Part shown: positions 5,784-62,689 of the stretch, in pieces | How positions within the stretch are numbered: position 1 is the stretch's first letter | How the letters are laid out: each line of letters starts with the position of its first letter | Source of the DNA: Mimachlamys varia | Taxonomy: Eukaryota > Mollusca > Bivalvia > Pectinida > Pectinidae | Assembly: GCA_947623455.1 (NCBI GenBank) | Contig: OX392528.1 | Coordinates: 57,694,322-57,758,321 of the forward strand | Length of the DNA: 64,000 nucleotides | Reading direction: 5' to 3' | Position numbers and translations under genes: made by a program | Notes under the pieces: generated by a model | What the model was told of the DNA's origin: nothing | Database searches by the model: none | Seen by the model: the letters and a program-made list of their open reading frames with translations, nothing else

Positions 5784-5820
5784 CTATAACCAGAGACGTA
5801 TTATACGTCTCTGCTATAAC
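5784..5820. mobile_element. 23-bp palindromic micro-element with 7-bp target duplication
   Basis: Positions 5791-5813 are a perfect palindrome (11-bp arms CAGAGACGTAT, one central T). The direct repeat CTATAAC flanks it exactly (5784-5790 and 5814-5820). The same arms recur at 40763 and 62479 with different flanking duplications, which points to a dispersed mobile family. Confidence 0.75.
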
Positions 5821-6790
5821 ATGTATGAATAAAAACTTTATTTAATATCATGATCAATGCTATACATAGCTAGATGAAGGAGATTTATTTTTCAAGCATT
5901 TAATTATTATTTTCCATTTATTGAATCTAAAAAAAATAATTTCAATGATCATTTTCTATTACTTAATGCTGTTTTACATGAATATATTATATTTATTTCA
6001 TTACCGACTTTGGTATCATATCTACAAATTAAATGAGTTGATATTCTTAGTTGAAATAGACTATAACTTAAACTTCAAAGGATTTCATATATAAACACCT
6101 TTCTTTCAAGTTACCAAAGGTAGTGTTCGGGGAATGGCTCATTCCCCCAACACCAACTCTGGTTGGCTCAATATAGCCTGCGCTTATACGGCCAGGTGTG
6201 ATTCCTAAGAAGCCCTGGGTTTAGATGTAAAATAACTATGAACAGAGATTTTATGTCAGAAGTGTGGTCATATACCTTAAATAGCTGTCGAAAAATACAT
6301 ACTTTTGTTAGAAGTTTCAGTACTTTTATTTTTTAATTGACTATAATATGATAAGTCTACAGTAAGACTTCAATGCCTTGTCAGGTTCGTTTTAACGGGA
6401 TGATTTATTTCAGAAGGACACATTATAAAGCGAAGGTTCTTTGTGCTTTACATATAGTATATACTTACACTTTTCAGTAGCCCCCTTTAACTTAAAATCA
6501 GGGCTAGAAACTTTTTCAATATATTAGTCCAAAGGACTTGTAAAATTCTTAAGGTACTAGTCCTGAGGGCTTCAGCCTCAGTTCAACAAGTGACGAACAA
6601 CAAATTGAGAAGCGATGAGCTGGCGGGCTAGTCCAGAATTTAGGGGGACACAGGGTATGGGGGTCCCTCCCAGTAAAAAAAATAATATCTTTATGCTCTA
6701 ATAGGACTTTTGGTGTATCCCGAGTGCTAACTTTGCACCATTTTCTTTTCTTGAGTATAAGTTATAGATTAGAATACAAAAACCAAATAA
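5821..6790. other. No gene recognised
   Basis: AT-rich DNA. Around 6130-6230 is a GC-richer stretch with no recognised identity. Confidence 0.5.
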
Positions 6791-7325
6791 AAACAAGAGG
6801 TCCAGAGGGCCTGTATCGCTCACATGGATACATTGTATCTAATTAATCATGTGAAATATTTTCTTTCTGGTCCTGCCCCTCAGCCCCCTGGGGGGAGGGG
6901 GGAGGGGGGGTGGGGGGTCAGTCCCACCATTATTACAATTTTGAATCCTGAGCACCTAGGGATGCTTTCTACCACATAAGGCCAATTTCCAAAAACCAAT
7001 ATAGCAAAATAACCCTTTTTTGCCCTCCTCCCCTCAGCCACCTAGGGGGTCAGCTAGTCCCACCATTAGAACAGTTTTTAATCCTGAGCATCTAGGGATA
7101 CATCCGGCCAAATAAGGTTGATTTCCAATCTGTGATTACGGAGAAAAGCCGCTAATATCAATATAGCTAAATGACCCCTAGGGGGTCAGTCCCACCATTA
7201 GTACAATTTTAAATCCTAGTCACCTAAGGATGCTTCCTGCCAAATTAGGTTGATTTCCTATTCGTGGTTATGGAGAAGAAGTCATTTAAACAATTGTTGA
7301 CGGACGACGGACACTGTGGTCCCAA
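6791..7325 (+). mobile_element. Pearl-like tandem-core element, module type a
   Basis: The element begins AACAAGAGGTCCAGAGGGCC with CTCACATGG. About three degenerate modules follow, containing 'gggtcagtcccaccatta', 'gaatcctgagcacctaggga' and 'ggagaagaagtc'. It ends in GACGGACGACGGAC. This architecture resembles the bivalve pearl elements. The 3' CCAGGTGAGCT end is missing. Confidence 0.7.
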
Positions 7326-8029
7326 CTGGCCCTCTTTGTGCATATCCTGAATTGAAGACTGGTCATGGTCATTTGTTTTCAGGACAATATTTGTAGTACT
7401 TCATTCAAGCCCGATACATATGAGCTAAAATCCAGGCCAAGTATCCTTTTTTTCTGCCAATATCAAGATCTTTAGTGAAGGTTTTTATTATACTTGACCA
7501 GTGGCCTAGAGAGCAGGCCAATGATATTTGTCACTGCACCTTTTAAGCACTCGGTCCTTGGTACCTACTGGCCAAATACCAAATAGCACTACATTGTACC
7601 TTTCTTCTACCATTTGAGTACAGGAAGTACTCACTCACCCATCCAGGGTTTTAATTTTATTCTGAAAATGGGGCTGCATCTTTGAAATTTTGGATAAGAT
7701 GTCTAAATAACTATTAAAAATAGATTTTTTTGAACAAAGCAAAATATTAAAATAAAAATTTTTGGATGCAAAATAGTGTCAGCATCAATATTTGTCATCA
7801 TGGAAAACATTTCAATCTCTTTTTTTTCCCCCATTTTGCTCCCTGGCATAACCATTGATATTTTGAAAAACGAATTTGAGAAACAAATAGCAATCCTTTC
7901 CTGTCCCGTAAAAACCCTGGTTCCACAAGTGTTAATTGTACGCAGACTCCCATTTTAAAGTGAATTCTTTGTATTAAAACACGTACAAAAACTGTTGGAC
8001 ATCAATTAATCTTGACATATATTCAATTT
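7326..8029. other. No gene recognised
   Basis: A fragment near 7315-7370 ('actggccctctttg') also occurs at 26370-26400. Otherwise unique AT-rich sequence downstream of calmodulin. Confidence 0.5.
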
Positions 8030-8815
8030 TATTAACTATATATATATAATATATATACATATCTCCTGAAAGTAAACAGTTTTGAAATATAAATAAACAT
8101 CTTTAAATACTATCCACCAGACATACATGTACAGTTAGTTCTGTGCAGCTACATGCTCCCAACCCAGATTGAAAAGATTTTAGCAACAACTTTGAAGAAG
8201 GGATGACAAAATAGAACTCTGAAAAATTACAATAATATTTATTTTGAGACAATCATGATTATCTTTTATCCATATGATCTCATGATGAAAGGTGAATTTA
8301 CCAATTTTTACACCCTTTAATGTTTTCCTGAAGAATGGATAATGAAGAGAAATGGACAGGATGTAACAACAAATGTTAACAGGTAATGAGAAAAATGTCG
8401 ATGAGTGAAACTTATGTCAACAACAACAGTCAATGGACACCTGTTACATAAAACTTTTTCCATATTTTTTTTTTTACAAAACCTTAGTGCCTAAGCTAGC
8501 TACACTTAACTAACAAATAGAAATCTCCCTGCCTGAAAATCCATAGCATATGTAGAGCAAAATAGCAGCTCTACATTAAAACCCAGGACATGTTTCCCTC
8601 AGGAGTCTTGTTCACCATCCCTTGGCTTGAAAATACAGCATCACTGTCAAAGGGATCCTACAACCTTTGGCCATCCAGTCTGGCTTCTATCAGCAAGGTA
8701 TGGACTGCAATTATCCCCCAGTTTGGTCACAAAAGTGTACCAACAACGTACATCCCACGTGATTTTTAATGACAAAACATTTAATGAAAAAATCTACTAT
8801 GTCCATAGTCCATAA
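8030..8815 (-). other. Probable calmodulin 3' untranslated region
   Basis: This lies directly after the calmodulin stop on minus. Candidate AATAAA signals read on minus near 8238-8243 and 8028-8033. No repeat family was recognised here, unlike in the introns. The true end is unknown. Confidence 0.45.
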
Positions 8816-38764
<29,949 letters not shown>

Positions 38765-39110: not shown

Positions 39111-39724
39111 CGCGCACTGCGGCAGATGGATGTTTATTTTGTGAGGAGAGTTCCGGAGAGGCAGTATATACTCACATGTCGCACGGGAAAATTCATAATT
39201 TCAACATTCTCTGAGGATCAAATTTAGACTAGACGACATCAATTATGTAAAACTAGCATTGTTTTCATAGGAATAATTCAGTAGTTAAACGAACACCGCT
39301 TTTTTGTGTAACAAAGGGCTTTTTGTACGTGGCCACTGGTGTATTTATAGTGTACTGGTGTGATTGGACACTTGTATTACGCTTGCATATTGTATCGATG
39401 TAGATAGATGGACCTTGTGCTGTCCTGATGGATAGGTTTTTTTTCTAGTGATGCTGTCGAAAATTATTTGAAAACGGTCTTCTTTTTTCTTTTATAGGCC
39501 TAAATCCTGAAAATGTACTGTGCAGTTTAGAGTAATAGCATAATTATCTAACTTCTCGCTGTTTTCTTGTTTTGCTCGCATAATTAATTTTGGTCTTATA
39601 TTAATTGATGTAGATTTCTATTTAATATTTAATGATAAATTTCTGGTACAGGATTCTGTATCTGATAATTCTTTTAAAAATACTAATTTTGAATGTAATG
39701 AGATGACACTAACGTTAGGCCTAT

Positions 39725-40718: not shown

Positions 40719-40755
40719 AGGCCTATAGATCTACATGTAGATACAGTATGCATAC

Positions 40756-40804
40756 ATTTCATCAGAGACGTATAAAGCCGTTTTAAATACGTCTCTGATT
40801 TCAT
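40756..40804. mobile_element. 35-bp palindromic micro-element with 7-bp duplication
   Basis: Positions 40763-40797 have 11-bp arms CAGAGACGTAT and a 13-bp spacer. The direct repeat ATTTCAT flanks it (40756-40762, 40798-40804). Lies 37 bp from the end of the foldback element. Confidence 0.78.
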
Positions 40805-42388: not shown

Positions 42389-42955
42389 TCATACATATAC
42401 ATTGTATATCAACCTCTACCCTATACCCCTCAGTCATACATGTACCAACCTCTACCCAAAACCCATCAGTCATACATGTACCAACCTCTACCCAATACCC
42501 CTTAGTCATACATGTACCAACCTCTACCCAATATCCCTCAGTCATACATGTACCAACCTCTACCCAATACCCCTCAGTCATATATGTACCAACCTCTACC
42601 CAATACCCCTCAGTCATACATGTACCAACCTCTACCCAATACCCCTCAGTCATACATTTACCAACCTCTACCCAATACCCCTCAGTCATACATGTACCAA
42701 CCTCTACCCAATACCCCTCAGTCATACATGTACCAACCTCTACCCAATACCCTCAGTCATACATGTACCAACCTCTACCCAATACCCCTCAGTCATACAT
42801 GTACCAACCTCTACCCAATACCCCTCAGTCATACATGTACCAACCTCTACCCAATACCCCTCAGTCATACATGTACCAACCTCTACCCAATACCCCTCAG
42901 TCATACATGTACCAACCTCTACCCAATACCCCTCAGTCATACATGTACCAACCTC
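42389..42955. repeat. 36-bp minisatellite, array 1, about 15 units
   Basis: The unit reads CAGTCATACATGTACCAACC plus TCTACCCAATACCCCT on plus. The first unit is degenerate. Units of 36 bp dominate, with an occasional 35-bp one (for example near 42748). Same unit as array 2. Confidence 0.97.
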
Positions 42956-43336
42956 ATCTTTATGATAGGGGGTGGCATACTCTGCTGGTGGATTGTTTAG
43001 TCCCCGAGGTTTGCTGGAGCCTCCATAGCCACAGTTAATCTCATTTGAGTAGTGGCACGGTACTTGTATTATATACATATTTTCATCGTACACGATTTGA
43101 AATTAAACAGAACTAGTGTAATTTTACTTCTAATTTCATAAAATAAAGGGGTTTTACGCACCCGACCCTTCTCCTTCTACATTAGTTTAGAAATTTTGGA
43201 TTCCTACCTTTTGGCCCCTAGCATCACTGAAGAGTCCCAGGAGGACGAAACAGCTGTATGATGCAGTTTAATTCATTTTTTTCGGCATACTGTATCTATT
43301 ACTAAATCTAAGAGGTGCAGCATATGTGTGTGTTAA
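42956..43336. other. Unique spacer between the minisatellite arrays
   Basis: About 380 bp not made of the repeat. On minus a stretch reads CGYGGSSKPRGLNNPPAEYA then TPYHKDE directly into the repeat. It looks protein-like, but there is no good acceptor or start, so I do not call an exon. Confidence 0.5.
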
Positions 43337-46300
43337 GTCATCTCTACCCAATACCCCTTCAGTCATACATGTACAAACCTCTACCCAATACTCCTCAGTC
43401 ATACATGTACCAACCTCTACCCAATACCCCTCAGTCATACATTTACCAACCTCTACCCAATACCCCTCAGTCATACATGTACCAACCTCTACCCAATACC
43501 CCTCAGTCATACATGTACCAACCTCTACCCAATACCCCTCAGTCATACATTTACCAACCTCTACCCAATACCCCTCAGTTATACATTTACCAACCTCTAC
43601 CCAATACTCCTCAGTTATACATGTACCAACCTCTACCCAATACCCCTCAGTCATACATGTACCAACCTCTACCCAATACCCCTCAGTCATACATGTACCA
43701 ACCTCTACCCAATACCCCTCAGTTATACATGTACCAACCTCTACCCAATACCCCTCAGTCATACATGTACCAACCTCTACCCAATACCCCTCAGTCATAC
43801 ATGTACCAACATCTACCCAGTACCCCTTCAGTCATACATGTACAAACCTCTACCCAATACTCCTCAGTCATACATGTACCAACCTCTACCCAATACCCCT
43901 CAGTCATACATTTACCAACCTCTACCCAATACCCCTCAGTCATACATGTACCAACCTCTACCCAATACCCCTCAGTCATACATTTACCAACCTCTACCCA
44001 ATACCCCTCAGTTATACATGTACCAACCTCTACCCAATACCCCTTCAGTCATACATGTACCAACCTCTACCCAATACCCCTCAGTCATACATTTACCAAC
44101 CTCTACCCAATACCCCTTCAGTCATACATGTACCAACCCCTACCCAGTACCCCTCAGTCATACATGTACCAACCTCTACCCAATACCCCTCAGTCATACA
44201 TGTACCAACCTCTACCCAATACCCCTCAGTCATACATTTACCAACCTCTACCCAATACCCCTTCAGTCATACATGTACCAACCTCTACCCAATACCCCTC
44301 AGTCATACATGTACCAACCTCTACCCAATACCCCTCAGTCATACATGTACCAACCTCTACCCAATACCCCTTCAGTCATACATGTACCAACCTCTACCCA
44401 GTACCCCTCAGTCATACATGTACCATCCTCTACCCAATACCCCTCAGTCATACATGTACCAACCTCTACCAAATACCCCTCATTCATACATGTACCAACA
44501 TCTACCCAGTACCCCTCAGTCATACATTTACCAACCTCTACCCAATACCCCTTCAGTCATACATGTACAAACCTCTACCCAATACTCCTCAGTCATACAT
44601 GTACCAACCTCTACCCAATACCCCTCAGTCATACATTTACCAACCTCTACCCAATACCCCTTCAGTCATACATGTACCAACCTCTACCCAATACCCCTCA
44701 GTCATACATTTACCAACCTCTACCCAATACCCCTTCAGTCATACATGTACCAACCTCTACCCAATACCCCTTCAGTCATACATGTACCAACCCCTACCCA
44801 GTACCCCTCAGTCATACATGTACCAACCTCTACCCAATACCCCTCAGTCATACATGTACCAACCTCTACCCTATACCCCTCAGTCATACATTTACCAACC
44901 TCTACCCAATATCCCTCAGTCATACATTTACCAACCTCTACCCAATACCCATCAGTCATACATGTACCAACCTCTACCCAATACCCCTCAGTCATACATG
45001 TACCAACCTCTACCCAATACCCCTTCAGTCATTCATGTACCAACCTCTACCCAGTACCCCTCAGTCATACATGTACCATCCTCTACCCAATACCCCTCAG
45101 TCATACATGTACCAACCTCTACCCAATACCCCTCAGTCATACATGTACCAACCTCTACCCAATACCCCTCAGTCATACATGTACCAACCTCTACCCAATA
45201 CCCCTCAGTTATACATGTACCAACCTCTACCCAATACCCCTCAGTTATACATGTACCAACCTCTACCCAATACCCCTCGGGTCATACATGTACCAACCCC
45301 TACCCAGTACCCCCCAGTCATACATGTACCAACCTCTACCCAATACCCCCCAGTCATACATGTACCAACCTCTGCCCAATACCTCTCAGTCATACATGTA
45401 CCAACCTCTACCCAATACCCCTCAGTCATACATGTACCAACCTCTACCCAATACCCCTCAGTTATACATGTACCAACCTCTACCGAATACCCTCAGTCAT
45501 ATATGTACCAACATCTACCCAATACCCCTCAGTCATACATGTACCAACCTCTACCCAATACCCCTCAGTCATACATGTACCAACCTCTACCCAATACCCC
45601 TCAGTCATACATGTACCAACCTCTACCCAATACCCCTCAGTCATACATGTACCAACCTCTTCCCAGTACCCCTCAGTCATACATGTACCAACCTCTACCC
45701 AATACCCCTCAGTCATACATGTACCAACCTCTACCCAATACTCCTCGGTCATACATGTACCAACCTCTACCCAAAACCCTTCAGTCATACATGTACCAAC
45801 TTCTCCCAATACCCCTTCAGTCGTACATGTAACAACCTCTACCCAATACCCCTCAGTCATACATGTTCCAACCTCTACCGAATACCCATCAGTCATATAT
45901 GTACCAACCTCTACCCAATACCCCTCAGTCATACATGTACTAAACTTTACCCAATACCCCTCAGTCATACATGTACCAACCTCTACCCAATACCCCTCAG
46001 TCATACATGTACCAACCTCTACCCAATACCCCTCAGTCATATATGTACCAACCTCTACCCAATACCCCCCCAGTCATACATGTACCAACCTCTACCCAAT
46101 ACCCCTCAGTCATACATGTACCAACCTCTACCCAATACCCCTCAGTCATACATGTACCAACCTCTACCCAATACCCCTCAGTCATACATGTACCAACCTC
46201 TACCCAATACCCCCCAGTCATACATGTACCAACCTCTACCCAATACCCCTCAGTCATACATGTACCAACCTCTACCCAATACCCCTCAGTTATACATGTA

Positions 46301-47332
46301 CCAACCTCTACCGAATACCCTTCAGTCATATATGTACCAACCTCTACCCAATACCCCTCAGTTATACATGTACCAACCTCTACCCAATACCCCTCAGTCA
46401 TACATGTACCAACCTCTACCGAATACCCCTCAGTCATACATGTACCAACCTCTACCCAATAACCCTTCAGTCATACATTTCCCAACCTCTACCCAATAAC
46501 CCTTCAGTCATACATTTACCAACCTCTACCCAATACCCCTTCAGTCATACATTTACCAACCTCTACCCAATACCCCTTCAGTCATACATATACCAACCTC
46601 TACCCAATACCCCTCAGTCATACATGTACCAACATCTACCCAATACCCCTCAGTCATACATGTACCAACCTCTACCCAATACCCCTCAGTCATATATGTA
46701 CCAACCTCTACCCAATACCCCTCAGTCATACATGTACCAACCTCTACCCAATACCCCTCGGGTCATACATGTACCAACCTCTACCCAATACCCCTTCATT
46801 CATACATGTACCAACCTCTACCCAATACCCCTCAGTCATACATGTACCAACCTCTACCCAGTACCCCTTCAGTCATACATGTACCAACCTCTACCCAATA
46901 CCCCCCAGTCATACATGTACCAACCTCTACCCAATAACCCTTCAGTCATACATGTACCATCCTCTACCCAATACCCCTCAGTCATACATGTACCAACCTC
47001 TACCCAATACCCCTCAGTCATACATGTACCAACCTCTACCCAATACCCCTCAGTCATACATTTACCAACCTCTACCCAATACCCCTCAGTCATACATGTA
47101 CCAACCTCTACCCAATACCCCTTCATTCATACATGTACCAACCTCTACCCAATACCCCTCAGTCATACATGTACCAACCTCTACCCAATACCCCTCAGTC
47201 ATACATGTACCAACCTCTACCCAATACCCCTTCAGTCATACATGTACCAACCTCTACCCAATACCCCTCGGGTCATACATGTACCAACCTATACCCAATA
47301 CCCCTTCAGCCATACATGTACCAACCTCTACC
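43337..47332. repeat. 36-bp minisatellite, array 2, about 110 units
   Basis: Same unit. Frequent variants: an extra T (CCCCTTCAG, 37 bp), CATTTA for CATGTA, CAGTTA for CAGTCA, ACATCTACC for ACCTCTACC. The canonical unit has no stop in any plus frame or in one minus frame, so open frames up to 1400 codons appear. Length variants are not multiples of three and the predicted peptide switches among QSYMYQPLPNTP, SHTCTNLYPIPL and VIHVPTSTQYPS, so I judge it non-coding. Confidence 0.97.
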
Positions 47333-48410
47333 TGATGCAAAATCAATCCAAAAAAAAGCAAAGCCATTGTTGGATACGGTTACGGCATGGATTCGTTCAT
47401 TTCATCACCACCGAGAGCAATTTACATAATGCGATACATTTCCAACGGGATTCGAGCTTTCAATCACCGACTGTCGGACGCAACAGGTCTTACACGCTCA
47501 CGTATACGGTGTGTTGACTGGCATCAGTCACCATTATTTCGGCTACTTCATTCTGCAGTGCAGCACAAAACTAGTCAAACGTTTTTGTTCTTACATAATG
47601 GTTGGCTTTGCGATTCTTTTTTCAAGTGGATTGTAGAGCGTGTGTTAGAGAATGAGCAAGAAGCCGTTAACTGACAAATGTCGATTCTGCTTAACGCGGG
47701 AATAAACAAATGGATTGGCAACACTCGCAGGACCTGTGCATTGTTTCCGGCAGAGGGTGAGAATTAATGAATGTGCTGTAATGGCAAGAAAGAGTAACAA
47801 ATTCCCCGAAATGTCCTAACATTGCCCGACCACAAAAAAATGACTTTGTTCACGGGTCGCCATGCTGGATACCATTTAAGCGTTTAGCTGATTGTGATCG
47901 ATAATACACAGAGAAACAGACTAGAGTTTGTGGTGAGAACTAGAAATCACTGTCAGGCTCGTTCTGACGCATTGCGGCACTACAGACAACCATTGCTGCC
48001 TGCTGATACCAGGAAACGTCGTATGTCGTCTGCTGTCAACACCACACGAACAACAGATGTCACAAAATATCCCAACCACCCGTGACGTAAACACCGTCTA
48101 TGTACATAACCGCTTAGCTTGTGTACCTGCAAATTAATCGAATCATTCCAATTATCAGTTCTATTTCAAACTCATTGGTGTATTTTAAATTTACATTTCG
48201 ATTTTTTACTCTCTAATTTCTTTCACGGCCGACACGTTTAAATGACGCTGATTGTATTGGCATCAAATCAAATTGATTTATTATTCGAGCTGGAGTACTT
48301 CAATGCTGTTTGTTCTCGTTGCCTGAGTTTACAACATGTGTTGATATCAACGCTTTGTGTAAACCTGTCATCATTGAAATTCATCTTTGATCACCACAAC
48401 GCGTTGAAAC
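47333..48410. other. No gene supported
   Basis: A 95-codon frame at 47387-47674 and a 63-codon frame at 47894-48085 lack recognisable domains. Confidence 0.4.
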
Positions 48411-48451
48411 ATTATTTCCAGGGACGTCACATATACGTCTCTGATTATTTC
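48411..48451. mobile_element. 25-bp palindromic micro-element with 8-bp duplication
   Basis: Positions 48419-48443 start CAGGGACGT and end ATACGTCTCTG. The direct repeat ATTATTTC flanks it (48411-48418, 48444-48451). Diverged member of the family at 5791 and 40763. Confidence 0.75.
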
Positions 48452-48876
48452 CGAGTAAATTGTTCGATACATATTAGTATGACCCATCCACACTTAAGTT
48501 AGAAAGAGTTGCAATTGAGTTTATCGATTATCAAGGGAAATTTGTTTTATTGAACACAATATTGAGAACGATTCAAGAGAGTGGGTTTGGCCTGGTTCTC
48601 TAGTACAGTATACTAGATATGCAGTAAGTAGATCAGTATGTATGTATACATGTACCTCAAGGCCACATTGTGTTACGTGTTACAGGGGCGCTGATAGTCT
48701 TTGTATCGTCATCACCTGGCAGCCAACTGAGTACGTGTAGATTGCATTTAAGTGTGGTACTTTACATAACCAGCGAACTTTACTTCATCCGCCGTATCTG
48801 GACCATATACCACTGTGTCCCGGTCTGGTTAGTCTTGCGAGAGAGATTTACAATAAAGAGATTTATGATAGGTTGG

Positions 48877-50542
48877 TTTTTAGCTCACCTGGTCCGAAGG
48901 AAAAGGGTTATTAAGCTATATTGTTTGAATCGACTTCTTCTCTATAACCATGGATTGGAAATCAGCCTTATTTGGCAGGAAGCATCCCTAGCTGCTCAGG
49001 ATTCAAAATGGTACTCATGGTTGGACTGACCCCCAAGGGAGCTGAGGGGCGGGGCCAAAAAGAATTATTTAGCTATATTGATATTAGCGACTTCTTCATA
49101 ACCACTGATTGGAAATCAGCCTTATTTGGCAGGAAGCATGCTTAGGTGTCCAGGATTCAAAATTGTACTAATGGTGGGACTGACCCCCTAGGGAGCTGAG
49201 GGGCAGGGCCAAAAAGAATTATTTAGCTATATTGATATTAGCGACTTCTTCTTCATAACCACTGATTGGAAATCAGCCTTATTTGGCAGAAAGTATTCCT
49301 AGGTGCTCAGGATTCAAAATTGTACGCATGGTGGGACTGACCCCCTAGGGGGCTGAGGGGTGGGGGCCATAAAAAGTATTTAGCTATATTGATATTAGCG
49401 ACTTTTTCTTCATGACTACTGATTGGTAATCAACCTTATTTTGCAGGAAGCATGCTTAGGTGCCCAGGATTCAAAATTGTACTAATGGTGGGACTGACCC
49501 CCTAGGGGGCTTAGGGGCGGGGCCAAAAAGGCTTATTTAGCTATATTGGTTTAGTCGACTTCGTTTCCATAACCACTGATTGGTAATCAACCTTATTTGG
49601 CAGGAAGCATGCTTAGGTGCCCAGGATTCAAAATTGTACTAATGGTGGGACTGACCCCCTAGGGAGCTGAGGGGCAGGGCCAAAAAGGGTTATTAAGCTA
49701 TATTGTTTGAATCGACTTCTTCTCCATAACCATGGATTGGAAATCAGCCTTATTTGGCAGGAAGCATCCCTAGCTGCTCAGGATTCAAAATGGTACTCAT
49801 GGTTGGACTGACCCCCAAGGGAGCTGAGGGGCGGGGCCAAAAAGAATTATTTAGCTATATTGATATTAGGGACTTCTTCATAACCACTGATTGGAAATCA
49901 GCCTTATTTGGCAGGAAGCATGCTTATGTGCCCAGGATTCAAAATTGTACTAATGGTGGGACTGACCCCCTAGGGAGCTGAGGGGCAGGGCCAAAAAGAA
50001 TTATTTAGCTATATTGATATTAGCGACTTCTTCTTCATAACCACTGATTGGAAATCAGCCTTATTTGGCAGAAAGTATTCCTAGGTGCTCAGGATTCAAA
50101 ATTGTACGCATGGTGGAACTGACCCCCTAGGGGGCTGAGGGGTGGGGGCCATAACAAGTATTTAGCTATATTGATATTAGCGACTTTTTCTTCATGACTA
50201 CTGATTGGTAATCAACCTTATTTTGCAGGAAGCATCCCTAGCTGCTCAGGATTCAAAATGGTACTCATGGTTGGACTGACCCCCAAGGGAGCTGAGGGGC
50301 GGGGCCAAAAAGAATTATTTAGCTATATTAATATTAGCGACTTCTTCTCCATAACCATTGATTGGAAATCAGCTTTATTTGGCAGGAAGCATCCATAGCT
50401 GCTCAACATTCAAAATTGTACTAATGGTGGGACTGACCCCTTAGGGGGCTGAGGGGCGAGCCGAAAAGAAAACATTTTATCATGATTACTTAGATACCAA
50501 TGTATCCAGGTGAGCGATACAGGCCCTCTGGGCCTCTTGTTT
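48877..50542 (-). mobile_element. Pearl-like element, module type a, about ten units
   Basis: Read on minus it starts AACAAGAGGCCCAGAGGGCC (50542 down) with CTCACCTGG and ends GGTCCAGGTGAGCTAAAAA-like (48877). The core consists of type-a units of about 150 bp. The ACGG-rich tail is missing. A 782-bp block (from about 48899) is repeated from about 49681. Confidence 0.85.
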
Positions 50543-50654
50543 AAAGTCACCGTAGTTCATACGCCGAAAGATCCTGATTCTTTACTGTCTACAGTTTGTT
50601 ATGTGAATCGAATAAAAAAATTGAAAAAACCTGCTTAATTGACTCTTCTCAAGC

Positions 50655-50870
50655 TTGTCGTGTTCGGACACCTGTATAAAACAGATCTACCAGGCACCAT
50701 TGTATCTACACGAACCTGATTTGTACAGATATCTGTATAATCTGTCAGGCGCCATTGTAACTAAACAAACCTGTTTTTGTTCGGAGATCTTTCTAATCAA
50801 ACCGATCCTGTTTTGTTCGGACACCTGTGTAACAGAACTGCCAAGCGTCATCATAGCTAAACGGAGCTGT
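50655..50870 (+). repeat. Degenerate tandem repeat, three to four units
   Basis: Units share 'gttcggacacctgt', 'ggcaccattgta' and 'ctaaacaaacctg', of about 55-60 bp. The 74-codon frame over it is an artefact. Confidence 0.7.
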
Positions 50871-52368
50871 GTTAAATAATGATTTCATCTAAGCCCTACT
50901 GTACATAATATGTAGTCTAGCTTACGGAATCTGTTTAATCCGGAAGAAACAAGTTGCTCTGTCACAAGCTTGACATTCTTGTATCTATTACTCATAAAAC
51001 AACAACTGAAAAATTCTATAGATGGAAAAAGATCAGAAAAGCTGGCATAGCTTTTGATTATACTGCACCTAATACAACTACATGTAGGCTTTCTGCAGGC
51101 GAAAAGAGCACTTGCTCATAACTACAAAGTGCAGTCTAGTTTGGGAAGAATTGGGAACATATGGAATTATCATTACGGAGTAGTAGTCTACCAATCTGTG
51201 GTATTCTGATACTCGTGTATATCTGACATATGAGTACAACCTACTTAGCATGCAGGCTGCTATGTTGACACATTCATTCATCATTGACAAATTCTCTCAG
51301 ATTGGGTAACTCGGCACTATGGTATTTATCACACAGGGTCCTTTAATAATAACAATGTCACATATCGAAGACGTGTTAGTCATGTACTTGAAATACATTT
51401 TCGATAAAAATGTCCCATCCTCCACCCCTCATAGGCCCAAAACTATCTGTAACACATTCTAAGGTCCTTGTGCTTGCAATACAGCCCTAGAGTTACGTCC
51501 CATAGTAGCACCAGTTGACACCTTAAGTAAGTTCATTTGTTCAACGCATGGTGAAGTGTAATACAGCCCAATAGACACCCTAGAGACACCAGTTGACACC
51601 TTAAGTTCATTTGTCCAATGCAGTGATGCTCGGAGGGGATTTATCGTCCTCGCAACAGGCAGGCTATGAAGCTTGAGTTGCCATACAATGTATCAGGGAC
51701 CGGGCTAATAAATAGGACTTAAGGATATAGATAGGCGGCACAGTGTCTTCAGATGTTTTGCTTAATAATTTGGATATACATTTAATAACGTGCATGTATC
51801 ATACATTGTATATCATTGGAAAGGTTATTAAATTTTCTATAAAGTGAACGTATAATTATAGTGTTAAAGTAATTCACAATTGCATAATAGTTTAAAAATG
51901 GCGGACAATTTTGAATATGGATCTTCTTTCACATTTCCTTACAAAAATTGACAATACTTTTCCTATTGACGGACAGAAAGGCTATCTACAAAAGTTGCCT
52001 CAGATTTTTCCTATATGTTCTAGAATTCAAGTAATTTCGATTATATGGTCTCTGGGTGATATTTCCATGCCCAAATTCACTTAAATGGTTACAAAACATG
52101 TTGTAGCTTAATTCCTCAGACATTGAGGCACGTTATTGTTGACAGGGTCTTTTACAACAATCATGCAAAATTTGGCACAAATCGGTTCATAGATGCCAAA
52201 GTTATGGCCGTTTGAAGAGGATAACTTGTTGATTTTTTTTGTTTTGTTTTTTATTTGTTTTATTTTTCAGAAATTTTACATAAATATACGATTAAAACAC
52301 ATAAAAAACATTCATTCTCACACTCACACTTTCTCATCGACACTACATTATCAACATCACGACGTAAA
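50871..52368. other. No gene recognised
   Basis: A direct duplication 'caccagttgacaccttaagt' lies at about 51510 and 51587. Otherwise unique sequence. Confidence 0.5.
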
Positions 52369-52490
52369 TGTATCATCATCATCATCATCATTATCATCAT
52401 CATCATCATCACCGTCACCATGATCACCACCATGATCGTCATCATGATCATGATCATCATCGATCATAATCATCACCATCATCATCTCAT
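52369..52490. repeat. (ATC)n microsatellite, imperfect
   Basis: ATC triplets with ACC/ATG interruptions. Generates spurious His-, Ile-, Met- and Asp-rich frames on both strands. Confidence 0.95.
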
Positions 52491-52638
52491 TGTGATATAC
52501 ATTTTCAAAACACAATGACATCACCATGACATGCCATGTACAGCCCTTTTGCAAAACACGAGTTAGCTCCCCTTAATCACAGACGGCGCTGTTATACTGT
52601 CACTTCCGGGAAGTGTTTGCCAAACAATACCAAACAAT

Positions 52639-54429
52639 ATGGCTGACAACAAAGACAATTACCTAACAGATGATGAAGTAAGTGCTTTAAAAGTGCCTGG
52701 TTTGAAACAATATCTTAGAAAACATGGACAGTTCGTTAGTGGAAATAAGTCGAACCTGATTGAAAGGGCTAAAGGAATAAGGAAACTTAACCTAAGTGAT
52801 GTTACTAACGTGCAGTGTGAAGACGATACCGGTCATAATCAACGGTACAGAGAAAAACACCTCTAGGTGAAGTTATACCTGAACCTTCATCCATTAAAAA
52901 CTGGTCGAGTGATGTGACATTAATACCAAACTTTTCAAGCAGTCAAACATATAACTATCTTGCTCTTGAAATGAAAGCGACGAGGCAATATCGCTCGAAG
53001 GTTTATTTTGAAGGCCGACACGTTCATTCCGTCGAATTTAATCGTATTAACGGTGAATGTAGTCATTGTCTGGTGAGATGTAAAGTCATCCCGTCGCTGC
53101 CAACTTCAAACAAAAAAGAAAATCCCGACCACACTGTATGGATTTGTTTATCTAAAGTGTCGAGCAAAATCCATTCGGCAAACTGTGATTGTACTGCTTG
53201 GTAAGTACTGGTTTTATAACAGAGAAACACATTGTTTTGAAAACACATCATTTAGTAATGAACCTCAAAAGATGATCAAATATTTCTTTTATTAAGTTTA
53301 TCTGCACTGTACATGTGTATAATGATATAATCAAATATAGAAATAAATAACATTTGCGATGCTGCTTCATGATGATATATACATGCTTTAATTAATCTAT
53401 AATGGCCATGCATCTGGCTAATAGTTAGTGCTGTCAAAAATTACATTTAATCGCTGAAACTGACATACATGATCATTAGATTATAATATAAGATGGCTCA
53501 ATTAACACTACATTGAATTTTAAATCTATTAACATCTGCTGTTGTCTTTTGATTTATGTACTGTTGTTTATATGGGATTTTTGTTTTCCTTACTTCAGTA
53601 ACGGCGAGGCCTGCAACCATATCTCAGCATTGTTGTACACTTTGGAAGACATCACAACAAGGAAAGCAGATGGAACCTTGCCGTCCACTTCGAAAAAGTG
53701 TAATTTGATAATCCTCGGAAAAGTAAGTTGAGTCCAAAAAAAGTGCAATACTTAAATTTCAACAAATTAAAAATCAGTGAAGGCCAAGAGACACTTCTGT
53801 TCATAGTTCAGCCACAAGTTCATTTAAACAGACAATAGATGTTGAACGTATGAGAAAAAAACGGTTTCTGCAAATTCAGATGCTGCCTGGTTGACATTTT
53901 TTGAAAACGAAAGTGATCAAAAGGAGGAAGAAATTGTTCAAACTCTGTGTCATGTTGACTACATGTATTGTTACAGAATCAGTTTAGAAAGCACAATGGT
54001 GAAGGGAGATATGATTGACAAACTAAACAGTATGTGTGTTAGTGAGGAAAGTGCAATAGCAATTGAAGAAATAACACGAGGACAAGAAAAAAATTCAAAA
54101 TGGAAAAGACTTACATCTTCAAATTTTGGAAAGGTTTGCAAGTTAAAACCAGACACTAAACAAGACAATACTTTGAAGGATTTATTGGGTTAATTACCGT
54201 GATGATTTTACAAACAAACATTGGGCATGGGGAATAAAACACCAGCAGCACGACGTATGTATGCTAACGCGGTCAAATCGGAGAAAATTGATGTGAAAAC
54301 CTTGGATTGATTGTAAATCCCAAGTACCCACACCTTGGGGCAAGTCCGGATGGTCTTGTGCTCACTCCAGGAGATGAAGATGATAATGGCCTGCTAGAAA
54401 TCAAATGCCCTTCTTCAAACAAATGGAAA
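52639..54429 (+). pseudogene. SAP-SWIM-YqaJ nuclease gene of an ISL2EU-like transposon, 5' part
   Basis: Exon 1 (52639-53200) starts MADNKDNYLTDDEVSALKVP with a SAP-like motif (LKVPGLKQYLRKHGQFVSGN), then after a one-base loss near 52858 continues VIPEPSSIKNWSSDV...YFEGRHVHSVEFN to CDCTA and donor G|GTAAGT. Exon 2 (53599-53722) gives CNGEACNHISALLYTLED, completing a SWIM zinc finger (CxC...CxH), then donor A|GTAAGT. A later exon (about 53850-54429) has EEITRGQEKNSKWKRLTSSN, a YqaJ start, then GLIVNPKYPHLGASPDGLV and LLEIKCPSSNKWK, the active-site D and ExK of the PD-(D/E)XK fold, in shifted frames. The C-terminus lies at 58283-58586. Confidence 0.85.
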
Positions 54430-55629
54430 GGGCCTGTTTCCAGTAATGTTAATTCTCCATAGGAGCCTACCCCCGTATCATTTCTTATATAGCTCAACTA
54501 CAGTTTTTTCTTTTCCGAAGAATAATTTTACACCTTTCCGACACCCAGATTTCATAATTTCAGTGAAAATGTATTTTTATAAAGTTGTCATTTTGAGCAT
54601 TAAAGACGTCAGGTCGTAAATAAAATAAGGTTATCTCGAAATTGTAATTCGCAACATAGTATAAATTTCTTTTGATAAATATTTGTAAAACATCGTGTTT
54701 ATTCATAAAACATAAAAAGAAAAAAATTCTCGGATGAAAATGCTCTTGCAGTGACACAATTAGGGAAAAAAATACCATAAAATTGCAATTTTCTCCCGTT
54801 ATATAGTTTTGGATGCAAATTTCCATCACAAAATCGGATAGAGCTTAACTTGTTTCATATGTGTACCAAAAATCAGCTAATTCCATGTGGTGGAACGTTC
54901 TCATATCACCGCCTGAATGTGGTTGTAAATTGAAAGAAAAGGGGAAATGAGTAACAACCTTGTCTGAAACCCTATTATATAGCTTATTATATACAAAATT
55001 TTATATTGAATATCAGAGCGATTATTTTCATGACAGTTTTATGATATCAAACAACTAAATAAACAGTATCGATATAAAGATTTACACTGAGGACACCCTG
55101 ATACATGAATACTTTTCTATCTCAAGTTGTCCTCTTCTGAATTTTCTGATCGTGTGACCTTAAACATTTATCCGTATCTTCTTGTCTTTGTCTATACGTT
55201 TACGGAATCATTGACTCGACGCTAGCTATTCTTGTCTCACTTTCCTTGTTTTATTGTCCCATCTCCAAAGCGTTGTGGCTCTGTCAGGGTTGGGACCCTG
55301 ACTTGTTTCACTTTCTTTGTGCCTGCCGACCACGCCACATCGATTAGATAGATTATCCATATGAAATACTTCATTTTGTTCCAAGTAATCAATCAATTCG
55401 TTATTATCACACATTTTCGCATAATTGTTCCACACTACTAAGTATTAGCTGTTTACAGCAATCATCGGTGGCTTGCTATTTTGTTACTTTATCGACGCTT
55501 CATAAAACAATCGTTATTGTTTCAAGATTGAGGGTAAATGTGTTGGAGAAGGCTGTCAACTATACTTCAAGAAACGTAGTGGCAATAAGAACAGTAGTGC
55601 ACGCAATGTTAATAGGCCACAATATTAAT

Positions 55630-57503
55630 GGCTCCTAGATACGCTGGTGCAACAAGGATTGTTGTCAGCAAAGGAACAAGCACTCATTTGCAAGAAGTGC
55701 TACATGAAGTATCTTCGGAAAAAAAATCAGCCTGAACCTGAAACCGAGGAGAACCAGGAAATAGAGGAAGAAGACGACTCCCCGTCCCATATCCTGCCGT
55801 TGCTGACCCTTCATGATCTTTTGAATGGATCATCTTCACACAAAAAATGCTGTCTCTGTCTTGTTAACTTTGCAATAAATGGAACAGAATCAAAGACATC
55901 ACCTGATCTATTCACACAATCTGTGGTGCCCCACCTCATCCCGCGTCTGCTCCATTCACCTTATTGGTAACGACTTAGATCCGTCTACAGAGGTAGTCCT
56001 TGATGGTAGAGGTTCCTTGGAATCTCAGTTACCATCAAAATCGTCCGAAATCATTAATGACCTCTTAGAAGTGTCGCACGTCCTTTCACAGAACCAGTCT
56101 GCGTTTGCAATAAGCTTTTCTTCTCTTGATGACTTGGCATGCATGGCCTGGACAGGTTGGTCCAAAGATCAGTTCCTCGAAATCCACTATCACTGTTCCC
56201 CATATCTTTCATCTGGTATATATACCAAGACTACACACGATGCTCTACTACTGTTCTGGGTAAAACTGAAAACCGACATTTCCTGGAGTCAGTGTTCTTC
56301 TCCTTTTGGAATTTCCAAGTCAAGTGTGTCCAAAACTTTCCACTCCATAGTACAGGCATTAGACACATCGATAGACCCACAATTGCTAGGGCCGGATCAC
56401 TTGACAAGAGAACAGTTGCTCGGGCACAATACTGTCTTTTCAGAAGCATTTTTTGGAGATAAAGCCACTGCCATATTAGATGGCACCTAAATTTATATCC
56501 AGAAAAGCTTCAACCACAAGCTCCAGAGAATGTCCTAGCCAGAAGAAGAGGAACTATCTCAAATTCATGAGCATCGCCTTACTAGATGGCTACATTCTGG
56601 ACACAGTAGGACCATTCACTGGCAGCGAAAATGGTGCTACAATTACAAAAGATGTCATGGACAAGCTAGTTACTTGGCTACAACCAGATGACAATGTTGT
56701 CGTTGACCGAGGTTTTAGAGATGTCCTACAAGTTCTCGAAGCCTCTGGCCTCAATGCTAGCATGCCGTCATACCTGAAACACGGTCAAAGTCAACATTCT
56801 GACGTCCAAGCAAATCTTGACAGAACTATCACCAAATCGAGGTGGATTGTGGAATCCTATCATGGTCGTCTGAAACACTGGACGTTCTTCCGACAGCTTT
56901 ATCAATGTCATTGAGGCTTTGCTTCGAACCGTCACAGCCTGTTTGAATGGTTATAGAGAACCGATCTACCAGAGATCTACAGAGAGAGATGCCAAAGATA
57001 GGCTAATGGCTGAACGTATGAAGGACCGTTTGACAACACCGAATGGTTTAGCTCAGAGAGTCAAGACAGATCCGGATCTATCTAGACGGGCAAGGTCCGA
57101 TTTTGTCAAGATGGATGCATCTTCCGTACTGTTTCCCCGTCTCGATCTCGATTACTTGAGAACCATTACGTGTGGAACGTATCAGATATCTCTGGCTCCT
57201 GGTTACATCGCCGAACATTTAAGTGATGACGGAGACTATGAGGTGCGGCTTTACCAGCACTCCCCAGACCTTCTCCGATGTCAAATACATTCGCGATACA
57301 AAAGCCAAACGAAATATAATGTTTGGGTACGGTTCACCGTTTCACCTGATGATGAGGCCCCAATAAAAGACTACTACTGCCAGTGCCCGGTTGGAGAGAG
57401 AACGATGGGAATGTGTGCGCATATCTCCAGTATCTTGTACTACAATTGTACCTTGGGTATTACAGGGCGTTGGAAAACCCTCGACCATTACAACCACAGG
57501 TAA
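55630..57503 (+). pseudogene. DDE transposase with C-terminal SWIM zinc finger
   Basis: Pieces in order: LDTLVQQGLLSAKEQALICK with CKKCY; after a frameshift near 55960, VVLDGRGSLESQ; LACMAWTGWSKDQF and KTTHDALLLFWVKLK with a helix-turn-helix-like FGISKSSVSKTFHSIV; ATAILDGT (first D); a stop and frame changes at 56490-56545; LLDGYILDTVGPF, NVVVDRGFRD (second D), KSRWIVESYHGRLKHW (E). After a stop at 56912 the next frame gives TACLNGYREPI and a SWIM finger, CQCPVGERTMGMCAH (about 57379-57423). The layout is that of an IS5/ISL2EU-like transposase. At least four lesions. Confidence 0.82.
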
Positions 57504-58269
57504 AGAAATTCCGATAAAACTTGAAATAGTTTTCCATGCGGCAACATGTCAAAATGTCATATGTCATATGTCAAAAGTATGTTTGGGGCTCGATATGAAA
57601 GATCCCCGTTACCATGTGTCTCACCAAACTTATAAATATAGGTATTATACAATCGCCCGTAGCTATGAACACTCTCGTAAATGCAAAAACCAACCAAAAT
57701 CATAAGGAACAGGTTTTGTGTGTTGTTCTGTCTATTTGTCAGCCAATGTCTTCAACCACGGGGACTTGTGAAGTAGCCATCTTGGATTTCTTTCAACCCA
57801 AGATTTGAAAATGTTCCACCATTTACATTTTGATGATTTTTCCTCCCATCAATAGCATATTACGTACTGTTTGATAGGATAAAAATTGGTTTGCATCCAA
57901 CGCCCATAAAAGGGTGTATTCTCTAAAAAACACAGTTTTTGTGTCTAAAATGTTATCATCGAAAATGGCATTTTTGAGATTGTTTCTTCCATAAAACAGC
58001 CAAATGGCACAATAGAAACATGATTTTTTGTCACAATCATGCCATGAATGTATTCTTTACGGTGACTATCATTTGATTAGATTTTCATCAATATTTTACA
58101 TAACATGCACATTTTATCAACACTTAGACAGCTTCTGAAAGGTACAACTTTGAGGAGCCATAAAAAACAAACCAAGTGACCTAAATCTTTATACTTTATA
58201 GATTTGTGACCACAACGGCATGGGCAATGCACCACCAACAGGAAATTTGAATCAGAGAAGGGGCCATTT
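57504..58269. other. 3' non-coding part of the inserted transposon
   Basis: No recognisable domain. Small frames at 57391-57808 are continuations or shadows. Confidence 0.5.
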
Positions 58270-58282
58270 TGGAAACAGGCCC

Positions 58283-58586
58283 TTTAATCATCCACGTGAA
58301 TGTGCAAAAGACAAGGATTTTTTTCTGTTGTATTGACGAGAATAATGATATTCACCTGAAAACTTCCCATCATTATTATCAGGTGCAGGGTCAAATGATG
58401 ATTGCTGAAAAAGAATGGTGTGCTTTTGTCGTGTGGACATTAAAAGGATGGACTGTGGAAACTATTTTTCATGACCAGAAATTCTGTGATTCCATGTTGT
58501 TAAAATTGAATTCGTTTTACTTAAGGAACATTCTTCCTGAAATGTTTAGCGAAAGGATCAAAAGAGGTCTGCCACCTAATACATAG
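58283..58586 (+). pseudogene. YqaJ nuclease gene, C-terminal part
   Basis: Reads LIIHVNVQKTRIFFCCIDEN, LKTSHHYYQVQGQMMIAEKE, WCAFVVWTLKGWTVETI and ends FYLRNILPEMFSERI. The YYQVQGQM...WCxFVVWT block is the typical end of the YqaJ fold. It continues the gene broken at 54429. Its frame is open to the stop at 58586. Confidence 0.88.
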
Positions 58587-59867
58587 ATTTAATTTAACGC
58601 TACATACCAGACAGTCTAATTGATGAGTGATCATGAGCTGATAAGCTTAAAATTAGGTTATATGATGAACTGAATTGTATCTACACTGTACGTATACGTA
58701 CTACGTAAATGAAAAAAGAACAATTGATCATGGTATATCCAAATATCAACATTTATTTTTGAATTAATACGACAAAATCACAATACAGCTCCATAACGTT
58801 GAAAATTAATTGTGTACCTGATAGTGTTTTGTAATATTGATTATTGATCAATTTCATAACATATTGATGAAATGAAAGTATTAACAATGAAGTATCATGG
58901 ATTGTTTTAGTTATTTGTTTGTTAAAGTGATCAATCAGTAACCAATAAGTCAGAAGTTGATGAGCTTGGAAGAAAACCTTTTCATCATCAATTGTAAGTT
59001 CTCAATTGGTTTGTGAAATATCAATTTTTATATTCAACTACAATTCACCACAAGTATATGGGAAAAAGCTTGAAATATGATCAAGTGCTCATTCCAAAAA
59101 AAATTTAAAGTATGTACCGTATTATGAATAATTACTGACCTCCAAGTGTATGCAACAACTGAAAACAGATAATTTATAACAATAACTGTAAAATATTCAA
59201 CTACAATTTTGTATGTTAAAATTTTCTTGACTTTATCGAAAGTCGAGGGATTTTAGTTAAAGTTGCATATTTCAAACAGGATAATGTTACAATGTAGCAC
59301 TGTAGTGGTATTCTCGCAACAAAACTTAGTAAAAATTTAACAGCAACACAGTACGTGTATACATATATATCACACATACATAAATTTAGATATAGTAAGT
59401 ATATCACACATGCATACATATATAATTATATATATGTCTATGATGTATTGATAATCTTTTGGTTAGGTTTATTTTGTTTAACCTTTTAACAACTTTAACC
59501 AAGGTCATTAAAGGATGTGCCCGGTTTTGGTGGTAGAGGAAAGCATATGGGTATTCTGAGAAAAACCAGTGCCACAGGCCAGGCCTTAAAATTGTGGCCT
59601 AGCTAGTCAGTGGTAGAATGTCAAGACTTCTTATTATCATTAGGTCGTATGATCATAACTGTATAGATTTCTTGGCTGACTTATAATTATATAAACTGTC
59701 TAAAACAATTTAACCTTTAACTAATATTCCCTAAAAAACTTAAAAATTCACATGTTAATATGGTAAATATTATTAGTTCATTTGATTAATATAATATTTG
59801 TAAACCTTTGTCAGTTCGGCTTTCATAACATGTGCTAAAACATGTTTTTGTACATTTTTGTGACAAT
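58587..59867. other. Spacer between two convergent transposon genes
   Basis: AT-rich, with TATATA-rich stretches near 59355-59435. No gene. Confidence 0.5.
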
Positions 59868-61101
59868 TTACTTTCGTATAAGAGGTGCCTGAAAATTTGT
59901 CAGTTTTACACATACTTTCCAAATAGCCGATGCCTGTTGAGCCATAGTAATTGGTACATTAGCCTGTAAAATTCTATAATTCTTTATCCTTTCCAACTGT
60001 CTTTCCACATGTATTCTCAGGTTAGCAATGTTCCTCGTTACTTTTACCTCGCGTCTTGAGAGTTGTTTGCGACTCCTTTTAAATGGCGGTATAATTAATT
60101 CCACCCCTTTTGGTGTGGTTAAGTCACATATTAAAAATCCTTTATCAGCCATGATGACATCGCCTGGTTCACACAAGTCAACCAACCCACTTAATTTAGT
60201 TATTTGTTTGTCACTGATACCACCATCATATAAATCTGAAACAAAAGTACAAGCACCAGCAAGCTTATTCCTATTAAAGATTTATATGTCATATGGGATT
60301 TGTAATCACTGTATAACATGGATTTCAAGGATAAAGGTTTTGGAGTTTCTGTCCTAATTTCAGTACAGTCTATAATAACACGACACTTTGGATATTTCAC
60401 TTTGAAGCATTCTCGCATTGTGTTGTCAATTATATTCCAGGATGGCCACTGGACGAACACAGATAATTGTACATTTAAATATTCAATCCACCTATTGAAG
60501 ACACGACAACATGTTGATGGTGACACTTTAAATCTATATGTTAAATCTTCTAGTAACAAACCAAGACGTAGTCTCATAAGCACCATGAGGAATTCATCTA
60601 TTAGTCTGAGGGCATATGGACATCCACTGGTCTGTTTAAACTGTTCATCGTGTTCAAACTCGTCAAACAATGCATTAAAAGTAGTTGCATGTGGAATACC
60701 TGTGTAAAACATAATATCATCATCAGAATTTTCAAGATCTTCATAAGTTAGTAAGGGGAGATCAACTTGTGTACCTACACTACAGAAAGATTTAGTTTCA
60801 GTTTGAGTAATAGTATCACACATTTTAATATCTTTTCTATCTCCTGTTTGTGTTGAGGAACAAATGGCATCTGGTGATGTCATTGTGGATTGATTACGTA
60901 TTGTCGAAACATCATGAATTTCCACTAGACCACAGTAATCATGCAAACGCAAAGAATTATCCAATCTGCTTGAAGAGCTGTTTAATATGACATCTTCAGT
61001 GATTTCACCTTCAGGTTCATTGGACTCGACCAGCAACTGTTCTTCAACGTTCTGTTCTGTTCTCCATCAAAGTTTTCATCCTGAATATTTGTATCAAGGT
61101 G
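59868..61101 (-). pseudogene. ISL2EU-like DDE transposase, last exon, frameshifted
   Basis: Exon begins after acceptor TTTTTACAG|C (61102/61101). Domains: acidic N-terminal spacer, helix-turn-helix-like LRLGLLLEDLTYRFKVSPST, WIEYLNVQLSVFVQWPS, first catalytic D in CRVIIDCTEI. A one-base deletion near 60265 shifts GIS-LL into AGACTFVSDLYDGGISDK (second D). The rest (60185-59868) has ADKGFLI, RIHVERQLERIKNYRI (E) and KLTNFQAPL. A 5-base slip in the GAACA repeats near 61050 breaks the N-terminal frame too. A THAP exon expected upstream was not found. Convergent with the YqaJ gene, as in ISL2EU elements. Confidence 0.85.
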
Positions 61102-61438
61102 CTGTAAAAATATGAAATAATCTTTTAAAGATTTTTTTTACCATAACAATTATTACCACTTGAGATCTGTCTTATCATTTGATTAATGTTTAAATACTTG
61201 CATTCCTAAAATTTTTGAGGGTGTGATTTACACATGAATATTCTCCTCATAGCCTCATGACACGCTAATGTTCATAATACACAAAATATTATTGCATTGT
61301 CCGTTTTAGATTATGTGATAATATATATATATATAACAGTACAATGCACATTCATTTATATTATTTTATTAAGGCATTTAGAAAGTAGACCTGTTGGTAG
61401 GATACTATCAAGACAATAATATCAAATATTGCACCAAC
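61102..61438. other. AT-rich, possible transposon intron
   Basis: Nothing recognised apart from (TA)n at about 61321-61333. Confidence 0.45.
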
Positions 61439-61468
61439 CAGGGACGTAAATTAAAATGTATGTCCCTG
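61439..61468. repeat. 30-bp palindrome of the micro-element family, no duplication seen
   Basis: Starts CAGGGACGTA and ends TATGTCCCTG. Flanks do not match each other. Confidence 0.5.
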
Positions 61469-62471
61469 ATATAACTTATCCCAAGTTTAAGTAATCAGTA
61501 TGCAGTTAAATTTATACTCGGAAAATAATAGAATCAAAAGAATTTTACCAATAAAATAGCCTGTATGTTCGAGTTCAGTGTTAATTCACAGTAATTGATA
61601 CATTTATGAACATGATTTTGAATATTTTTTTGTTATATGATGTAGAATATTTGTAAAAAAAAACTATTTTGAAAAAAAAAACAAACAAAAAAGTTGTTCG
61701 CCTCCTATATATCTATATCCTTAAAGGATTTTGGCCACGATTTTTCATAATTTCATATTTTGATCTCATTTAATGCAACAATACGTCCCTCGGGGTTGGG
61801 AAAATAGACAGGCTAAGTATAGGTATACGTAACGAACAGCCTAGTGAATATGCATATTTTGACCGGGATTCTAGGTCACGTGATGTGTGAAGTCATTGAG
61901 GCACAACGTATCCGATACCTGTACACGCCATTACATATTTATCTGTGAGTATAAGCGTTGACTTTTATCTTATTTCTTGGTGCAAGTAATGGCAGCAACC
62001 AATACATGTTATGTGGTTAACATTATCAATCGTCATTAATGATCTTGTCAAAAAATAAAACTTATCTATTTCCGATTTTTACATAAACTGCATTCAATTC
62101 GAATCTAGTCCATGACGTCTCAGCAACTCCAAGCTTAGAGACAGTGATACAATTGACACAATCTGATTTTACGGCTATGTAAATTACCTGTAGCCTTACC
62201 TGTCATACACATACTAGCCAAAGGGCATTTGTGGTACCTGCCTGTGAGTTGTGGCAGGTGTACTAATTACCCTGTAATTACCAAGATATGTGAATGTTAT
62301 GGCCAGTGAATTCGAAGGGTATTCATGATGATATAATTATCGATCCTCTAAATAGCAATATACACCGCCACAATTATTTTTATCCCTAGCCGTCCCCAGT
62401 GTTGGAAGAAAAACTATTTTTTAAAAAGGATTAAAGAAGTTTTCAACAGAGTCAAACTATATTTTATCAGT
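61469..62471. other. No gene recognised
   Basis: Contains a GC-richer island around 61790-61930 with TCACGTGA. No domain found. Confidence 0.45.
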
Positions 62472-62517
62472 ATTTAACCAGAGACGTATATGTATACATA
62501 TACGCCCCTGATTTAAC
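62472..62517. mobile_element. 32-bp palindromic micro-element with 7-bp duplication
   Basis: Positions 62479-62510 run from CAGAGACGTATATGTA to TACATATACGCCCCTG, an almost full palindrome (16-bp arms, two mismatches). The direct repeat ATTTAAC flanks it (62472-62478, 62511-62517). Confidence 0.78.
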
Positions 62518-62667: not shown

Positions 62668-62689
62668 CAGGAACGTATATGTGTCCCTG
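62668..62689. repeat. 22-bp palindrome of the micro-element family, degraded
   Basis: Starts CAGGAACGTAT and ends ATGTGTCCCTG. Adjacent flanks do not match. Confidence 0.45.

Follow-up and report, generated by a model that had tools for sequence, protein, structure and literature searches.

How a transposase could bind and move a piece of DNA of only 23 bp is the question raised by a stretch of the genome of the scallop Mimachlamys varia (64,000 nucleotides, hereafter the window, C2:57694322-57758321 of the 975.3-Mb genome; C-numbers denote genome sequences and L-numbers extracted genomic segments). An earlier note had described there a family of palindromic insertions of 23-35 bp, each resembling two terminal repeats joined head to head and each bounded by its own direct repeat. 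We propose, with a probability of roughly 0.87, that these palindromes are excision footprints of DNA transposons of the P superfamily. The puzzle then falls away, because the palindrome would be nothing but the end-joined stubs of both ends of a longer element; mobile units of 23-35 bp become needless, since the most probable history is the insertion of a same-ended element of ~3.1 kb and its subsequent excision. All four units lie where they had been placed, and their flanks match exactly, over 7, 7, 8 and 7 bp:

5791-5813 (with flanks 5784-5820): putative footprint of 23 bp, 7-bp duplication CTATAAC on both sides
40763-40797 (with flanks 40756-40804): putative footprint of 35 bp, left stub of 17 nt CAGAGACGTATAAAGCC, 7-bp duplication ATTTCAT
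48419-48443 (with flanks 48411-48451): putative footprint of 25 bp with mismatched arms, 8-bp duplication ATTATTTC
62479-62510 (with flanks 62472-62517; L019 801-832): putative footprint of 32 bp, 7-bp duplication ATTTAAC

Chance does not explain such a family. Two exact arm pairs occur in the real window (a count that leaves out the two units with arm mismatches) vs none across 200 Markov-shuffled windows, and a 7/7 flank match was obtained for 0.25% of random window intervals. The genome-wide search for inverted CAGRGACGTAT pairs that the earlier note had called for (CAGRGACGTAT-N(0-20)-ATACGTCYCTG) returned 1949 exact matches, vs 0 for the reversed control pattern, and the units indeed form one family with two terminal repeats placed head to head. 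The flanks were analyzed in all extracted sequence, with one segmental duplicate merged, which left 36 distinct units; here the direct repeats agree at 7/7 positions in 21 units, at 8/8 in 1, at 6/7 in 6 and at 7/8 in 2. This is far above the control, in which left and right flanks were taken from different units (33 units, 1056 pairings) and agreed at 7/7 in 0.09% and at 6/7 in 0.76% of the pairings. The target bases are biased to GT...AC (28 sites).

That the direct repeats are genuine target duplications, as the note had supposed, is borne out by empty sites, which it had expected in other individuals or species and which we found as paralogues within the same genome for two units, L015 and L055. 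In the extracted DNA, the repeat in which the L015 footprint sits is also present in many footprint-free copies, two of them inside the window:

893-1042, + strand: paralogue of the L015 repeat without the palindrome (empty site), single target copy
2980-3126, - strand: another such empty site, in a further copy of the L015 repeat, likewise with no palindrome and a single target copy

The filled state at L015 reads GTTATTA-unit-GTTATTA, vs one target copy in the empty paralogues. The second case is a footprint at L055 469-497 with the duplication ATACTGG, for which the empty paralogue lies at L010 1797-1892. A third candidate empty site (L010 105-124) is ambiguous and was not counted. Insertion with a 7-bp target duplication is thus confirmed at two units.

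The element that was inserted can be traced through the longer palindromes. Those with a spacer of 21-51 revealed deeper sequence of the terminal inverted repeat (TIR), and a 37-mer taken from it has 67 matches genome-wide with at most 3 mismatches. Two parent copies were found in this manner, each with a perfect 7-bp duplication:

C10:17037413-17040504: complete parent copy of 3092 bp; perfect 33-bp TIR CAGGGACGTATATGTGAGAGGGATAGGTAACTG; duplication GACATGG
C4:18214445-18217532: second parent copy of 3088 bp, of which only the two ends were read; duplication GTATATA

For a third copy, on C7, the right end was absent from the predicted position. When the first 357 bp of the parent were used as a DNA query, 146 first-look candidates were obtained, of which 40 hits were scored; every one of the 40 begins at base 1, with an identity of 97-100%, and because of this shared start and identity the parent family looks young. 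The longer element with the same ends that the note had asked for therefore exists, at ~3.1 kb; the transposase that was to be sought along with it is not encoded in the young copies. A decayed relative lies at the edge of the window itself, its right TIR differing by one base from that of the young parent and its left TIR degraded:

63780-64000, - strand: right end of a decayed parent copy, right TIR at 63780-63812; the body extends beyond the end of the window (L019 2102 to ~4300)

Comparison of the palindromes with the parent TIR discloses a sharp limit. For the first arm type, 75 rows with a left arm no shorter than 18 nt were selected; 71 of these end at nucleotide 18-19 of the 33-nt TIR, as expected of a P-type footprint, which retains only the outer overhang length between the target duplications. 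In the other arm type, 74 of 85 rows (selected for at least 17 nt) stop at 17-18 nt, the inner sequence of this type having been taken from footprints and one single end, while its complete parent was not read. The limit thus falls inside the TIR, where a staggered cut would set it, and the arms come in two types, with CAGAGACGTATAAAGCC(A) or CAGGGACGTATATGTGAG(A), which suggests at least two related element families.

Cuts of this kind are known. In the Drosophila P element the 5' cut is reported 17 bp inside the 31-bp TIR (PMC7776569), and excision of the P type followed by end joining is described as leaving overhang sequence between the target duplications (PMC3878927). In the scallop, an element with a 33-bp TIR beginning CAGRGACGTAT would first be inserted, duplicating 7 (sometimes 8) bp, a step borne out by the two parent copies with 7-bp duplications and by the empty sites at two footprints. 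The transposase would then cut the 3' ends of the element and the other strand 18-19 nt inside, leaving on each flank a 3' overhang that corresponds to the outer 18-19 nt of the TIR; we infer this stagger from the limited length of the retained arms and from the 17 nt published for the Drosophila element. The two overhangs, inverted and nearly identical, would be trimmed, paired by short homology or filled in, and finally end-joined, and the expected product (duplication, stub, reversed stub, duplication) agrees with the footprint rule in the literature. End repair, one of the alternatives that the note had raised, is hence retained as the joining of the stubs of both ends. Possible template-switch fillers at L069 and L070 are tandem arrays without a duplication, and they were not used as evidence. 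Afterwards the footprints would drift like ordinary DNA and be multiplied in part with their surroundings. Such multiplication, by segmental duplication or by satellite growth, is seen for some of them: the satellite-like arrays at C4:48841634-48845138 and C2:50063623-50063939, with a spacing of ~89 bp and 71 bp, carry the same footprint in successive units and look like a scar amplified within a tandem repeat. The unit at L071, with a clean duplication, is located within a repeated 53-mer. At L004 2927 there is a single arm whose 7-mer recurs 28 bp on; several single arms exist, and this one was left out of the evidence.

The same rows allow for assessment of the view that the palindromes are ultra-short mobile elements, in which the pair of stubs is itself recognized, excised and reinserted by a transposase. 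Identical interiors do recur at separate places (in 12, 11 and 10 of the 75 rows), one 37-bp unit is found 7 times among the 85 rows, and their duplications are no less clean than the parent's. Nonetheless, the 31 distinct interiors among 75 rows speak against it, and the arms stop within the parent TIR, so that the inner TIR and the subterminal sequence are missing. Moreover, the stiffness of a duplex of only 23-35 bp would probably prevent its two ends from meeting. Preferred junctions in end joining would likewise produce recurrent interiors, and some of the copies belong to satellites or segmental duplications. We therefore consider mobile micro-elements highly unlikely. Recurrent interiors would also allow for renewed movement of a subset of identical palindromes in trans, through a transposase that pairs two separate palindromes, although this is equally improbable; if true, these would be the smallest known cut-and-paste units.

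The palindromes could alternatively be internal-deletion derivatives, i.e. extreme miniature inverted-repeat transposable elements (MITEs) generated by incomplete gap repair of the parent, whether or not they were moved afterwards. Their ends and duplications are the same as in the parent, and a few longer units keep ~50 bp of one end (C2:11234063 and C2:58224985). However, breakpoints of such deletions should spread over the TIR and the interior, in contrast to the observed pile-up at 18-19 nt. Genome-wide there are 140 palindromes with a spacer of 21-51 vs the 1949 with a spacer of 0-20, several of the listed longer ones being adjoining or tandem units, and a search of 300 kb turned up no exact duplication around any pair of ends separated by over 44 bp. 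An origin by internal deletion appears to us extremely improbable. Ordinary MITEs, which are likewise short and non-coding with inverted ends and target duplications, share the terminal repeats of the transposon according to PMC3878927, unlike the scallop units, in which little over half of each 33-nt TIR is left; as the bulk of the rows of the first arm type (71 of 75) stop at 18-19 nt, two complete mobilizer TIRs are not retained, and the assignment to MITEs was rejected.

The nature of the transposase is a separate issue. Because the young parent copies encode none, their mobilizer is inferred, and none of the P-coding elements found was complete, with both ends and a duplication, which leaves room for a scenario of excision by a transposase from outside the P superfamily. 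The genome does encode P-superfamily transposases (Pfam P domains; 49 matches), among them an open frame of 963 aa on C9 with three TNP-like domains in Pfam that matches the Drosophila P transposase 6p5a with E 2.3e-14, and relatives are named from Mytilus, Pecten, Argopecten and Ylistrum, among others. Of four related P copies in which the 5' side was examined, three (C9 = E9, C4 = E4, and C3) have a correctly oriented CAGRGACGTAT end, the arm on C3 having been predicted beforehand and then found. The single arms upstream of E9 and E4 were rejected as proof of TIRs, as they lack a right end with a duplication and both resemble partly decayed footprints. Each such case of an arm near a P gene is weak, because the background is ~0.05 ends per kb per strand (7 exact ends on both strands of the 64-kb window). 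E4 (on C4, L057) provides a stronger link, since it appears to join P coding remnants, an end of the CAGRGACGTAT type and the subterminal DNA of the parent: over 467 aligned columns at 81% identity, the sequence 202 bp inside its CAGAGACGTATAAAGCC end corresponds to that 194 bp inside the parent TIR, and the P-coding remnants follow the aligned stretch. Together with the presence of P transposases in the genome, E4 argues for the P-like mobilizer that the note had listed as a candidate.

In addition, the length of the duplication and the GT...AC bias fit the P superfamily, in which 7-8 bp are duplicated. Other transposases are expected to leave different traces: according to PMC3878927, Tc1/mariner elements leave overhangs of 2-3 bp, piggyBac leaves no footprint, and hAT transposases form hairpins on the flanking DNA. 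We consider excision by a non-P transposase exceedingly unlikely. The hAT mobilizer, the other candidate of the earlier note, fits poorly, as 18 nt of each TIR would be unexpected after hairpin formation on the flanks; hAT elements are also described as making an 8-bp duplication at NTNNNNAN targets (PMC3878927), vs 21 of 36 units here with a 7/7 and 1 with an 8/8 repeat and 7 bp in both parent copies.

Several observations, in addition to the recurrent interiors mentioned above, weigh against our interpretation. No duplication is present in 6 of the 36 units, although 3 of these rows stem from two loci chosen for their odd tandem structure. The arm limit is exceeded in 4 of the 75 rows (7 of 79 arms when four units are also counted in their second orientation), and 11 of the 85 rows of the other type keep more of the TIR than the limit. 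The site pairs seen in this one assembly are of the empty and footprint states only, none being both filled and excised. The young 3.1-kb copy on C10 has no frame longer than 108 aa and encodes no transposase. Pfam found no THAP domain in the 963-aa frame on C9, nor in three other frames scanned, where a separate upstream exon would escape the scan. The fourth related P copy (L021/L022) has no upstream CAGRGACGTAT arm; for E9, E4 and C3 no matching right end or duplication was found, so that their second end is unproven, and E4 is decayed. Other P loci showed no such end in the 1.5-kb flanks on each side (at most 1 mismatch, a tolerance at which some hits lie within coding frames), apart from one footprint. 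Young P families (L037, L039, L040-L046) have no CAGRGACGTAT ends in the extracted DNA, which does not reach their termini. Finally, cell assays of zebrafish THAP9, as presented in PMC10983969, produced larger flanking deletions rather than tidy stubs, which cautions against transferring the fly case directly to other animals.

With respect to known systems, the Drosophila melanogaster P element resembles the scallop parent in its long TIR (31 bp vs 33), in its deep cut (17 bp inside the TIR vs the scallop limit of 18-19) and in the overhang sequence that reportedly persists between target duplications after end joining (PMC7776569, PMC3878927). It differs in its 8-bp duplication, as compared to mostly 7 bp in the scallop, and in the letters of the TIR; moreover, the scallop footprints are dispersed, with at least 1949 exact copies, well in excess of the parent copies observed (146 candidates, 40 of them scored). 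Galileo, a member of the P superfamily in Drosophila, is described as making a 7-bp, sometimes 8-bp duplication with the consensus GTATTAC or GTANTAC, i.e. with GT...AC ends as in the scallop; its TIRs are long, variable and foldback-like, and the available portion of the source does not mention a footprint family (PMC4168063). Zebrafish Pdre2 / THAP9 offers the example of a P-superfamily transposase with TIRs and target duplications in a non-insect animal, although with a TIR given as 13 bp and a duplication of 8 bp (PMC10983969).

Two further palindromes in the window resemble the four units:

61439-61468: decayed palindrome of like kind, duplication gone
62668-62689: decayed 22-bp palindrome CAGGAACGTATATGTGTCCCTG, duplication not clear

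A 57-bp repeat, 95% identical between L003 ~100-157 and window 61721-61777, starts both times ~20 bp past a palindrome-type arm, and it looks like a separate repeat. Tandem arrays are also found in the window: ~136 copies of a C-rich 36-bp unit at 42410-47332, which cause a strong local GC skew, and apparently the same 157-bp unit arrayed on opposite strands at 21019-22253 and 48901-50470. Among the P-superfamily loci, L040-L045 (on C7, C13, C10, C19, C16 and C6) represent a young family of six loci that share ~99% identity across 4.5 kb and contain frames of 816-843 aa, while L020 680-1813 and L021 8834-9676 contain a similar-looking second open frame opposite the P transposase strand, with no Pfam match.

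Footprints of this kind are known as such; as far as the searches show, their abundance, the bivalve host and the readable stagger of 18-19 nt are new, and no comparable footprint family appeared among the top matches listed from the open-licence literature, insofar as the text of these sources was available. The deep staggered cut of the P element and its end-joined scars are known mainly from flies and from cell assays. The scallop genome, with thousands of readable scars of apparent P-superfamily elements, would constitute a natural record of cutting and repair, from which the stagger, the end-joining spectrum and the choice of target are measurable from sequence alone. The 97-100% identity of the scored copies suggests that the parent may have been active recently enough for tests in living animals. 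For the annotation of genomes there is also a warning: short palindromic repeats that are dispersed and flanked by target duplications are not necessarily mobile elements.

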